Shown here piece by piece: positions 17,196 to 20,199 of a stretch of DNA of 64,000 bases. This stretch comes from Promicromonospora sp. MEB111 (GTDB lineage Bacteria > Actinomycetota > Actinomycetes > Actinomycetales > Cellulomonadaceae), in the NCBI RefSeq assembly GCF_030209445.1, contig NZ_JARVSD010000028.1, forward strand, positions 62,001 through 126,000. The letters are read 5' to 3'. The position numbers and the translations under genes were made by a program. The notes beneath the pieces were generated by a model. That model was given only the letters and a program-made list of their open reading frames with translations, did not search any database and was not told the origin of the DNA. Each line of letters opens with the position of its first letter. The first letter of the stretch is position 1.

Positions 17196-17213
17196 TTTCA
17201 GAAGGAAATGAAA
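17196..17213. promoter_or_regulatory. Possible operator TTTCA-N8-TGAAA
   Basis: An inverted repeat TTTCA (17196-17200) and TGAAA (17209-17213) lies in an unusually AT-rich stretch between the divergent binding-protein and PaiB-like genes. A minus-strand TTGACC at 17190-17185 could be a -35 element beside it. Short half-sites make this weak; the GbsR/MarR protein at 11633-12193 is a plausible binder. Confidence 0.25.
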
Positions 17214-17277
17214 GTTTTACGCGGCGGTCACACGGGACGGGTCCCGGACAGGCCCGTCCTGATGGTTCGATGACCCT

Positions 17278-17922
17278 GTGATCCACACGACCGACTACGA
17301 GATCCAGGACGAGGCCCGCGTGCGCGACCTGGTCCGCACCCACGGCTGGGCCACCTTGGTCTCGGTGGCCGACGACGGCGCGCCCGTCGCCTCCCACCTG
17401 CCCGTGCTGCTGGAGGACACGCAGCCGGGCGAGCCCATGAGCCTGCTCAGCCACGTCGGCCGGCCGGACGAGGTGCTGCACGCCCTGGACAGCGGCCGCG
17501 AGTCCCTGCTGATCGTGCAGGGCCCGCACGGCTACGTCTCGCCCGGCTGGTACGACATGACGCCCGCCGTGCCGACGTGGAACTACCTCGCCGTCCACCT
17601 GTGGTGCACGGTCGAGCTGCTCGGGCCGGAGGAGTCGTACGCGGTCCTGTCCGACACCGTCGACCGGTACGAGTCGGTCATGCCCGAGCCCGTGCGGCTC
17701 CCCGGTGTCGAGGAGTACGCCCACCGCATCGCCAAGGGCGCCGCCGGCTTCCGCCTGCGCGTGATCCGCTGGCAGGGCAAGGCGAAGCTGAGCCAGGACA
17801 AGCCGCGCGCCGTCGTGGAGCGCGTCGTGACGGCGCTCGGGTCCGACCCGCACTACGCGCAGCCGGCGCTCGCGGCCGAGGTGCGCGCCGAGCTCGACCG
17901 CCGCCCGGACGGCGCGGCATGA
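17278..17922 (+). CDS. PaiB-like FMN-binding protein
   Basis: The 214-residue protein matches the PaiB family throughout: SHLPVLLE near residue 40, a QGPHGYVSPGWY block near 80 and VPTWNYLAVHLWC near 100, the last two being the flavin-site signatures of this split-barrel family. PaiB was named as a negative regulator in Bacillus, but the fold suggests flavin or heme-linked redox chemistry. The GTG at 17278 follows TTCGAT by 6 bases, suggesting a leaderless message. The stop overlaps the amidohydrolase start (ATGA), so the two are cotranslated. Confidence 0.9.
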   Translation: MIHTTDYEIQDEARVRDLVRTHGWATLVSVADDGAPVASHLPVLLEDTQPGEPMSLLSHVGRPDEVLHALDSGRESLLIVQGPHGYVSPGWYDMTPAVPTWNYLAVHLWCTVELLGPEESYAVLSDTVDRYESVMPEPVRLPGVEEYAHRIAKGAAGFRLRVIRWQGKAKLSQDKPRAVVERVVTALGSDPHYAQPALAAEVRAELDRRPDGAA

Positions 17923-19526
17923 CCGCCCTGCTCCTGACGAACGCCCGCCTGGTCGGCGCGTCGCCGTCGAACGTAGGGAACGTCGGCGCAACAGGGGGTG
18001 TTGCGCCGACCGGTCCTACGTTCGACGGGTCCGTCGGCGAGTCGGGCGGGCTCGTCGACGTGCTGGTGCGGGACGGGCTGGTCGAGGTCGTCGGGGCGGC
18101 CGGGCTCGTCGGCGACGGCGGTGTCGAGCGGGTGGACCTGGGTGGGCGCATCCTCATGCCCGGGCTCTGGGACGCGCACGTGCACCTCACGCAGTGGGCG
18201 CTGGTGCGGCGCCGGCTGGACCTGTCGGGCGCGCGCTCCGCCGCCGAGGCCGTCGCGCTCGTGCGCGACCGCCTCGCCGAGGGGCCGCCCGAGCCCGGCA
18301 CGGCGCTGGTCGGCTACGGGTTCCGGGACGGGCTGTGGCCCGACGTCCCCACGGCAGAGCTGCTGGACGCCGGCGCGGGCGAGGTGCCCGTGGTGCTCGT
18401 CTCCGGCGACCTGCACTGCGCGTGGCTCAGCACCGCCGGCCTGCGGTTCGTCGGCGTCGGCGCGCACCCCACGGGCGTGCTCCGGGAGGCCGACTGGCTG
18501 CCGCTGGCCGCCGCCGTCGATCGGGCGCCGGACCACCTGGCCGACGCCTGGGTGGCCGACGCCGCCGCGGCCGCCGCGGCGCGGGGCGTGGTCGGCGTCG
18601 TCGACCTGGAGATCACGGACAACCTCACGGCCTGGCGCCGCCGGTTCGCCGGCGGGTTCGGCGCGCTGCGGGTCCGGGCGGGGGTGTGGACCCCCTGGCT
18701 GGACGATGTCCTGGCCGAGGGGTTGCGCAGCGGCGACGTGCTGCCGGGCACGGGCGGCCTGCTGGAGCAGGGGCCGTTCAAGGTGGTCACGGACGGCTCG
18801 CTCAACACGCGCACCGCCTACTGCCACGACCCGTACCCGGGGCTGACCGGGCCCGAGGCGCACGGGATCCTGTCGGTGCCGCCGGCCGAGCTGGTCCCGC
18901 TCATGGCCCGTGCGCACGCCGGCGGGCTGCGGTGCGCGATCCACGCGATCGGTGACCACGCCAACACGCTCGCGCTGGACGCGTTCGCCGCGACCGGGGC
19001 GCGCGGCTCGGTCGAGCACGCGCAGCTCCTCGACCCCGCCGACCTCGCCCGCTTCGCCGAGCTCGGCGTGATCGCGTCCGTCCAGCCCGAGCACGCCATG
19101 GACGACCGCGACATCGCCGACCGGCACTGGTCGGGGCGCACCGGGCGGGCGTTCGCGTTCGGCGCGCTGGACGACGCCGGGGCCGTGCTCGCTCTGGGCT
19201 CGGACGCGCCGGTCGCGCCGCTCGACCCCTGGTTCGCGGTCGCGGCGGCGGTCAGCCGGTCGCGGGACGGCCGCGCGCCCTGGCACCCGGAGCAGCGGAT
19301 CGGCCTGCGCACGGCCCTGGAGGCCTCGACCGACGGCCGCGGCCTGGTCCCGACGGCGGGGGCGCCGGCCGACCTGGCGGTCCTGGACGCCGACCCGCTG
19401 GCGCCGGGCTCCGGCTCCGGCTCTGGCTCCGAGGCCGACGACGCGGCCGCCGCCGCGGCAGCCCTGCGCGAGATGCCGGTGGCGGCCACCCTCCTGGCGG
19501 GCGCCTGGACCCACCGCACGTTCTGA
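17919..19526 (+). CDS. YtcJ-like amidohydrolase with in-frame palindromic insertion
   Basis: The 535-residue protein belongs to the metal-dependent amidohydrolase superfamily (amidohydrolase_3, YtcJ-like). Visible motifs are WDAHVHLTQW (first metal site), VTDGSLNTRTAY, HAIGDHANTLALDAF, VEHAQL and LGSDAPVAPLDPW. Near the N-terminus, residues about 16-36 are encoded by a 63-bp imperfect palindrome (17965-18027), splitting the usual first beta-strands LTNARLVGA and GLVDVLVRDG. The C-terminus has a Gly/Ser/Ala-rich loop before the last strand. It probably hydrolyses an amide, imide or similar bond in the cytoplasm; the substrate is unknown. Whether the insertion disturbs activity cannot be told, but the frame is kept. 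Confidence 0.85.
   Translation: MTALLLTNARLVGASPSNVGNVGATGGVAPTGPTFDGSVGESGGLVDVLVRDGLVEVVGAAGLVGDGGVERVDLGGRILMPGLWDAHVHLTQWALVRRRLDLSGARSAAEAVALVRDRLAEGPPEPGTALVGYGFRDGLWPDVPTAELLDAGAGEVPVVLVSGDLHCAWLSTAGLRFVGVGAHPTGVLREADWLPLAAAVDRAPDHLADAWVADAAAAAAARGVVGVVDLEITDNLTAWRRRFAGGFGALRVRAGVWTPWLDDVLAEGLRSGDVLPGTGGLLEQGPFKVVTDGSLNTRTAYCHDPYPGLTGPEAHGILSVPPAELVPLMARAHAGGLRCAIHAIGDHANTLALDAFAATGARGSVEHAQLLDPADLARFAELGVIASVQPEHAMDDRDIADRHWSGRTGRAFAFGALDDAGAVLALGSDAPVAPLDPWFAVAAAVSRSRDGRAPWHPEQRIGLRTALEASTDGRGLVPTAGAPADLAVLDADPLAPGSGSGSGSEADDAAAAAAALREMPVAATLLAGAWTHRTF
17965..18027. repeat. 63-bp palindromic element inside a coding region
   Basis: Outer arms 17965-17977 and 18015-18027 (13 bp) and inner arms 17982-17993 and 17999-18010 (12 bp) pair perfectly, with a 4x4 internal loop and a five-G apical loop. 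The outer arms contain GAACGTAGG/CCTACGTTC, shared with the intergenic hairpin at 19580-19633. It is 21 codons long. Near-identical 12-base direct repeats flank it (17952-17963 and 18033-18044, 11 of 12 matching). Confidence 0.8.
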
Positions 19527-19579
19527 CCCCGGCCCCGGCCCCGACCCTGGCCCCGGCGCTGGCCCCGACCCTGGCAGCC

Positions 19580-19633
19580 GAACGTAGGAGCAGTCGCCGC
19601 ACGAGCGCTCATGCGGCGACTGCTCCTACGTTC
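19580..19633. terminator. Perfect 22-bp hairpin after the amidohydrolase gene
   Basis: Bases 19580-19601 pair perfectly with 19612-19633 around a 10-base loop. It follows the amidohydrolase stop by 53 bases, across a GGCCCC-rich stretch (19527-19578), and precedes the toxin-antitoxin promoter, so it can serve as terminator. Its outer arms match the palindrome inside the amidohydrolase gene. Confidence 0.75.
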
Positions 19634-19656
19634 ACCTGATCAGCGGAGCATGGCCG

Positions 19657-19684
19657 TTGACTGCCACCACTTTACGTATACGAT
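19657..19684 (+). promoter_or_regulatory. Toxin-antitoxin promoter with palindromic operator
   Basis: TTGACT at 19657-19662 and TACGAT at 19679-19684 are 16 bases apart and the ATG follows the -10 by 6 bases. The 8-bp palindrome CGTATACG (19675-19682) overlaps the -10 and is a likely autorepression site for the ribbon-helix-helix antitoxin. Confidence 0.6.
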
Positions 19685-19690
19685 ATTCAC

Positions 19691-19954
19691 ATGAGCGACG
19701 GGAAGATCCGCGGACAGGCGGTGAGCGAGGAACAGATCCAGGCGTGGGCCGACGAGGCCGAGGCCGGCTACGACGTGACCAAGCTGCGTCGCCGCGGTCG
19801 TCCGCCGGCCGGTGACGGGCCGGGCGAGGTGGTGCCGGCTCGGCTGGACGCCGCGACCCTCGCGGCCCTGGACCGGCAGGCCAAGGCAGAGGGGCTGGCG
19901 AACAGGTCCGAGGCGATCCGGGCGGCCGTGCGTGCCTGGGCGCACGTCGCGTGA
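19691..19954 (+). CDS. Ribbon-helix-helix antitoxin
   Basis: The 87-residue protein has a ribbon-helix-helix DNA-binding domain at its C-terminus: strand VVPARLDAATLAALDRQA followed by GLANRSEAIRAAVRAW, the classic CopG/RHH pattern. The N-terminal half (EEQIQAWADEAEAGYD) is likely the disordered or helical toxin-neutralising segment. It overlaps the next gene by four bases (GTGA), the usual arrangement of a toxin-antitoxin pair, and its promoter carries a palindrome suitable for autorepression. The base composition of the upstream region is distinctly AT-rich for this window. Confidence 0.85.
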   Translation: MSDGKIRGQAVSEEQIQAWADEAEAGYDVTKLRRRGRPPAGDGPGEVVPARLDAATLAALDRQAKAEGLANRSEAIRAAVRAWAHVA

Positions 19955-20199
19955 GGCTGCACGACTCCGCCCGTAAGCACTTTCGCCGCGACCGGCTGAC
20001 CGAGGCAGGCGTCCTGCGCGCCGTCGAGCAGCCCGCCTATCCAGCGCCGCTGGACGATGAGGACGACCCGCGCCGCTGGCTCCTGCTCGGGTTCGACGAC
20101 GCCGGACGGCTGCTCGAACTCGTGACCCTCGACTTCGACTCCGGCGAGACGTTGGTCATCCACGCGATGAGGCCCGCGCGCAGTACCGCGACCTGCTGA
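19951..20199 (+). CDS. Putative toxin, 3' end frameshifted
   Basis: The 82-residue product begins with GTG and fits the small toxin-like proteins found next to RHH antitoxins in Actinobacteria (signature LLGFDDAGRLLELV then DFDSGETLVIHAM), a likely RelE/BrnT-like fold; this family assignment is from memory and moderate. The last ten residues (RPARSTATC) do not fit. Adding one G after base 20172 would instead give ARAQYRDLLT and a stop at 20202-20204, a natural helical C-terminus. So there is either a real one-base deletion that alters the toxin's end or a sequencing error. Confidence 0.65.
   Translation: MRLHDSARKHFRRDRLTEAGVLRAVEQPAYPAPLDDEDDPRRWLLLGFDDAGRLLELVTLDFDSGETLVIHAMRPARSTATC

Follow-up and report, generated by a model that had tools for sequence, protein, structure and literature searches.

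The window analyzed here, a 64,000-nt stretch of contig NZ_JARVSD010000028.1, comes from the 6.23 Mb genome of Promicromonospora sp. MEB111, a soil actinobacterium. Genes were called with our own script, and the calls are not an annotation. On the forward strand, a gene for an FMN_bind_2 protein (Pfam; 17278–17922) is the upstream neighbor of a gene for a YtcJ-like amidohydrolase (Pfam Amidohydro_3; 17919–19526), which carries a 55-nt palindromic element after codon 16 (17969–18023, forward strand; frame 2 translation SNVGNVGATGGVAPTGPTF). We refer to this element as family A. A further copy of 54 nt lies between genes (19580–19633, forward strand), starting 53 nt past the amidohydrolase stop, and pairs at 26 of its 27 symmetric positions. 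As an earlier note on this DNA had proposed, the reading frame survives the palindrome: ORF 17919–19526 remains open across it, and our gene finder puts the start upstream. The amidohydrolase start overlaps the FMN_bind_2 stop (ATGA), in keeping with translation that begins before the element is reached.

The palindrome, described in that note as 63 bp long, is real, although its unit length needed revision. Its arms (17964–17993 and 17999–18028, 30 nt each) are 87% complementary around a 5-nt spacer, and the 65 nt from 17964 to 18028 are predicted to fold as RNA at −51.3 kcal/mol (z −10.45), with none of 200 shuffles equally stable. The unit itself measures 54–55 nt (17969–18023) and is followed outward by weaker 6-nt extensions, as judged from flank frequencies in 104 listed copies: GCCGTC on the left (17963–17968) and, on the right (18024–18029), GACGGG in place of the consensus GACGGC. 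The motif GAACGTAGG occurs four times in the window (0.10 expected), in both arms of the amidohydrolase palindrome and both arms of 19580–19633, so the outer arms are indeed common to the coding palindrome and the intergenic hairpin. No Rfam 15 covariance model matched positions 17200–19800 at E values up to 1. A two-sequence AlphaFold model reached a mean pLDDT of 35, too low to be informative, and the best solved relative, 3igh, could be aligned only from residue 64, beyond the insert (3icj from residue 67).

Copies and anatomy of family A

The family ends, GAACGTAGG/CCTACGTTC, are present as exact two-ended copies in 11 of 13 Promicromonospora genomes, at 2–48 copies each, and there is no such copy in G064 and G111. 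When 200 genomes of the taxonomic family were sampled, an exact copy turned up in 12, namely 11 of the own genus and one of another genus, with one copy. The arm thus recurs across the genome and the genus, as the earlier note had anticipated. In the source genome, the 9-mer GAACGTAGG lies at 37 places (2 for the reversed control), and the two-ended pattern has 12 exact copies; with up to three mismatches and a length of exactly 54 nt, we found 16 copies (0 in the control), which with the 55-nt amidohydrolase copy makes 17.

A scan of a species-level genome collection returned, among the matches listed (at least 115 stretches, 80 of which carry a taxon name), 49 from Promicromonospora, 29 from Saccharothrix, and 2 from MAGs. 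The Saccharothrix matches (L060 and others), from a distant genus, differ in design: there GAACGTAGG stands at the head of half-units of 22 nt, tandem and inverted (GAACGTAGGACTCTCGCG..). The shared 9-mer may reflect common recognition, common origin, or coincidence. From the matches listed, 44 loci (29 Saccharothrix, 2 MAGs, and 13 judged Saccharothrix-like by their arms) were removed before the set of 104 Promicromonospora-type copies was compiled. The consensus element had no match in phage and plasmid collections. Virus carriage was rejected as well, since the single viral_contigs match, with 10 of 27 positions paired and 42% GC, was taken as chance.

With lengths of 53–56 nt allowed in the search, 96 of the 104 listed copies are 54 nt long and 8 are 55 nt. 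Positions 1–9 and 14–17 from each end are near-invariant, so that each half-site consists of the 9-mer and, further inward and about one helical turn away, a conserved GTCG (centers of GAACGTAGG and GTCG about 10.5 bp apart). Positions 10, 11, 13, and 18–20 vary and pair above expectation, and the interior is free but mostly self-complementary. At positions 10–13, in 48 copies left after near-copies were dropped from 96, 0.677 of cells were paired versus 0.404 in shuffled data (largest of 1,000 shuffles, 0.50), and pairing dropped to 0.12–0.30 when partners were slid. For example, one site shows three fully paired states in three species (GATC/GATC in G000, AGTA/TACT in G105, and GGTG/CACC in G077). 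Outward, the consensus extends by 6 nt (GCCGTC/GACGGC); at the consensus level, the flanks, continuing as GAC or GGC, hold no T-run.

Flanking direct repeats of 12 bases had been put forward as a duplicated target. The repeats exist (17952–17963 and 18033–18044, forward strand; 11 of 12 positions match), but their reading as a target-site duplication is unsupported: the orthologous inserts of G105, G077, and G128 lack them, and of 3,000 random coding positions, 25 had an 11/12 repeat flanking a 65-bp stretch, each member at most 25 bp away. Across the 104 listed copies, direct repeats of 4 to 12 nt, with the boundary shifted 0 to 8 nt outward, likewise showed no consistent excess (largest counts: 5 versus 1.36 expected for 5 nt, and 5 versus 1.68 expected for 4 nt). 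The RAYT domain Y1_Tnp (PF01797) had no match in any of the 13 Promicromonospora genomes, and mobilization by a RAYT was rejected on this ground; the same search found matches in 5 of 14 control genomes.

Most listed copies lie outside genes: 39 are flanked by tandem genes, 29 by convergent genes, and 11 by divergent genes, while 10 fall at the edge of a locus, 6 overlap a gene in part, and only 9 are in genes (4 of them the amidohydrolase), compared with 83% of random 54-mers. Copies have hence spread chiefly into intergenic gaps, those between convergent genes being overrepresented. Two stretches (G000 C11:1-400000, L219-L238; G117 C1:1-400000, L239-L258) contain many further palindrome families of comparable size, examples being GAGTGCTGGATATTCGCCCTT, GGCAGTTGGCATCGAGGTCGG, TGTCAGAC..CAGGTCACC, and GAGGCCTAAGTTTCTTCGC. 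These stretches hold 23 and 26 palindromes, versus 1 and 1 in shuffled sequence.

Coding copies and the amidohydrolase loop

By our own gene calls, 4 of the 17 copies in the source genome lie in frame inside genes, encoding the amidohydrolase, an M20 peptidase, a luciferase-like oxidoreductase, and a dipeptide ABC ATPase, the last with the copy in the linker between its two domains. The M20 and luciferase-like names derive from Pfam matches of relatives' copies (L095 and L100), transferred by matching sequence. A fifth host gene, tilS, is found in relatives; of 13 loci, 7 were readable, with the element in G087, G006, and G031 and without it in G105, G097, G048, and G117. The ABC gene was read in 11 of 13 genomes, with the element present in nine (once decayed) and absent from two. 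In all five genes (own gene calls), the in-frame copies sit in frames that remain open, with conserved protein to either side. The earlier note's likening of the insert to the protein-coding palindromes of Rickettsia, here in an actinobacterium, is thus borne out by a dispersed element that is in frame in several genes. Two reading phases occur, ERR..PTF and NVG..LRS (NVG..PTF in the 55-nt copy), of which the NVG phase becomes readable once a central TGA is lost. The third forward phase, with a TAG in the arm, was not seen among coding copies. Coding copies are also less well paired (15 to 22 of 27).

The amidohydrolase had a match in all 13 Promicromonospora genomes (in pieces in G128). The palindrome had been placed at the junction of the first two strands, and this position held, with a first-strand stretch (LLLTNARL or close) upstream in 13/13 orthologs. 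Family A occupies the loop in four genomes (G000, G105, G077, and G128), and the loop is empty in five, so that the empty sites sought among close amidohydrolases do exist. The remaining four (G117, G087, G031, and G064) carry in the same loop the arms of another palindrome family, B (ACTGCAGA/TCTGCAGT and the like), a finding that the earlier description of a single insert did not include. At this site, the family B arms were read by eye and are degenerate, with a best pairing of 17/24 in G117, 14/24 in G087, and background level in G031 and G064; G117 and G087 each have one B palindrome nested within a second. Family B, too, is dispersed: 5/13 genomes have it, 15 of 18 distinct copies share a 49-nt core, and two more copies lie inside genes (L214 and L217). 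The family B amidohydrolase copies of G117, G087, and G031 (L175, L176, and L181) show nested or interleaved arms in an open frame, although the gene caller puts none of the three inside a called gene.

Conservation of the segment in distant homologs, which would have spoken against an insertion, was not found: among 18 loci from other genera, none had family A ends at the site (at least six mismatches) or a comparable palindrome (no pairing above 18/24), though a few additional residues of another kind occur there in L265 and L270. Because the insert is missing from some relatives and from the outgroups that were read, its gain most likely took place within the genus, at the loop joining the first two strands. 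The gene tree has weak support, and the G128 row is partial, with a very long branch; gains and losses were therefore not counted on it.

Ends and interior at orthologous sites

To compare orthologous places, 14 copies of the source genome with 140 nt of flank on each side were searched against four relatives. Of 48 candidate places fetched, 33 were analyzed, with both flanks aligned, and 15 were dropped because one flank was unaligned; where a target region held several copies, the best was taken. Family A was present at 18 of the 33, another palindrome at 5, and none at 10, and of 300 random stretches, 2 had a palindrome as good as those five. Where family A was present (18 sites), the 9-mer ends differed at 2/324 positions and the interior at 139/648, with aligned flanks 87% identical; the source genome's copies had been picked for good ends (at most one mismatch), but their partners had not. 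Two G105 places scored as empty may be decayed copies (six end mismatches), although an unrelated site (L385) reaches six too. Flanks abut at one site only, in G097, but there 20 nt of flank are also missing, and no insertion with a clean boundary was caught at orthologous sites. The site of the intergenic copy 19580–19633 holds a different palindrome in G105. Quite different palindromes were observed at orthologous intergenic sites in G105 C2:569250-570000 (L356), G105 C2:484600-485300 (L362), and G097 C3:129400-130000 (L395).

In the reverse direction, a set of 37 orthologous pairs was picked for good ends and is hence biased, and its members are non-independent (six are the amidohydrolase). 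Its 31 equal-length pairs showed 15/558 end differences versus 274/1,123 in the interior; 155 interior changes were one-sided and 28 two-sided with pairing kept, so compensation is the minority. The insert in the ABC linker, compared pairwise over nine species, likewise gave 78/648 end differences versus 518/1,008 in the free interior. Within this insert, codon 1 is GAA in eight of nine species (4.1% of Glu codons in the source genome) and codon 2 is CGT in eight of nine (4.8% among its synonyms), while codon 16 is CCT, TCT, or ACT, so that Pro, Ser, and Thr alternate, CT is kept in 9/9, and the rare last base stays. Because rare codons are kept while residues change, the constraint on the ends is, judging from these alignments, one on nucleic acid (DNA or RNA) and not on peptide.

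Hence, the insert does not appear to be merely inert, and here too the earlier picture was incomplete: the ends are nearly fixed at orthologous sites while the stretch between them drifts. Site-by-site selection may keep the ends, as may re-insertion at these sites or the copying of one element from another. That the interior has diverged further than the flanks is compatible with renewal, hairpin-templated rewriting, and relaxed constraint alike.

Known elements and possible explanations

Rickettsiales are the best-known source of protein-coding palindromes, as RAYT-bearing bacteria are of REPINs. As described in the cited parts of Bertels and Rainey (2011, PMC3116915), REPINs have inverted conserved ends and a spacer constrained by length and hairpin, with compensatory changes common, and accompany RAYT transposases. 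Family A resembles them in its conserved inverted ends, length-constrained spacer, and hairpin with compensatory changes; unlike them, it occurs in a genus in which no RAYT was found (no PF01797 match in 13/13 genomes). RPEs, according to the passages cited, are in-frame palindromes in conserved genes of several functions, some orthologs of which lack them, and are 100–150 bp long and found in Rickettsiales (PMC3767692, PMC2229807); RPE-4, -6, and -7 are described as distinct families that occupy a single site within one gene (PMC3767692). Family A is similarly in frame inside several protein genes and missing from other orthologs, and different palindrome families likewise share one gene site, the amidohydrolase loop. 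It differs from RPEs in length (54–55 nt), phylum (Actinomycetota), and sequence, and near-invariant ends at orthologous sites are shown for family A.

The GTAG/CGTC-tagged REPs, in the cited portion of Di Nocera (2013, PMC3733652), carry an unpaired tetramer tag at one end of a 20–40 bp repeat and are known inside ORFs in several species. As far as that account goes, family A shares with them short palindromes near 3' ends, some inside ORFs, with several families in some genomes, but its GTAG is paired within the arm and its unit is 54 nt. The main text of the paper nowhere uses the terms Actinobacteria, Streptomyces, Mycobacter, or Frankia, and the cited portion names no actinobacterium. Bacterial MITEs such as RUP and Correia/NEMIS, which have target-site duplications according to the cited part of PMC2229807, are comparably small and dispersed with inverted ends, whereas no such duplication is evident in the 104 listed family A copies. 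The element also forms a GC-rich hairpin like that of an intrinsic terminator, but the T-run is absent from its flank consensus. Similar elements are thus known from other phyla, and the moving enzyme was not found for the Promicromonospora family. Among the literature matches listed, which left most subscription papers uncovered, no such elements appeared for Promicromonospora or other actinobacteria.

On balance, we think that family A is probably a REPIN-like Promicromonospora palindromic family, coding like the Rickettsia RPEs and recognized by a putative non-RAYT protein. A trans-acting protein, not of the Y1/RAYT type, would recognize two inverted half-sites at a fixed outer distance of 54 nt, either in DNA or in the hairpin. 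Counting against this, neither a recognizing protein nor an autonomous relative of the element was found, and PF01797 was without a match in the 13 genomes. Such recognition would hold the ends constant, and copies could be spread and re-perfected by that machinery or, from time to time, by hairpin-templated copying. Intergenic hairpins would probably act on transcript 3' ends. Inside proteins, the peptide would be a passenger, tolerated because 54 nt make 18 codons and two of the three forward phases are readable; in the 55-nt amidohydrolase copy, the frame would be balanced by its flanks. A more far-reaching form of this proposal is tentative, and we hold it to be rather doubtful: a RAYT-free actinobacterial system in which a putative protein recognizes the 54-nt hairpin ends, which stay fixed genus-deep through coding regions and in spite of codon bias; the interior undergoes repeated rewriting, sometimes of both arms together; and unrelated families vie for the same positions, one enzyme loop among them, and displace each other there.

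Three other explanations appear considerably less probable. An inert selfish insert, that is, an RPE-like element that jumped in with a 12-bp target duplication and for which only protein tolerance matters, would account for in-frame copies in several genes, empty sites, and dispersal. We nonetheless consider it unlikely, as neither a 12-bp nor a consistent shorter duplication was found in the 104 listed copies at nine boundary positions, the orthologous inserts have no 12-bp duplication, and the even decay to be expected is at odds with ends that are kept (2/324) while the interior is not. A comparably low probability attaches to host 3' hairpins, palindromes selected for their fold at terminators or transcript ends, with coding copies as rare strays. 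Palindromes of many families do lie mostly not wholly in a gene (20/23 and 24/26), with a convergent excess, and one family can replace another at a site (5/33 comparisons versus 2/300 random stretches), but terminators need neither an invariant 9-mer nor a fixed 54 nt, the flank consensus is without a T-run, and in-frame copies with kept rare codons would go unexplained. Least probable, in our estimate, are immobile, scattered sites to which a chromosomal or regulatory protein of the host binds, their length being fixed by inverted half-sites on the same face of the DNA. Binding to a duplex would not call for covariation at positions 10–13, and exact copies range from 0 to 48 per genome, with sites differing between species, even though the nearly invariant GAACGTAGG and GTCG, with centers about 10.5 bp apart, and the ends kept at orthologous sites speak for such binding.

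Family A offers a clean comparative system: five genes carry it in frame, empty sites exist, several species are available, and no RAYT was matched. It opens the questions of what fixes palindrome ends, what rewrites their arms, and by what route DNA elements donate peptides to proteins. Where rare codons persist although the amino acids change, DNA-level and protein-level constraint can be tested directly against each other.

Two minor observations concern the surroundings of copies. Clusters of short-spaced copies (L133, L371, L373, L374, and L376) occur in the genome with the highest copy number (48), with five exact copies within about 2.1 kb at L133 and two side by side at the M20 peptidase site at L373. 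In the window, positions 19691–20199 hold a small ribbon-helix-helix protein (RHH_1) overlapped by an 83-codon ORF, a toxin-antitoxin-like arrangement.
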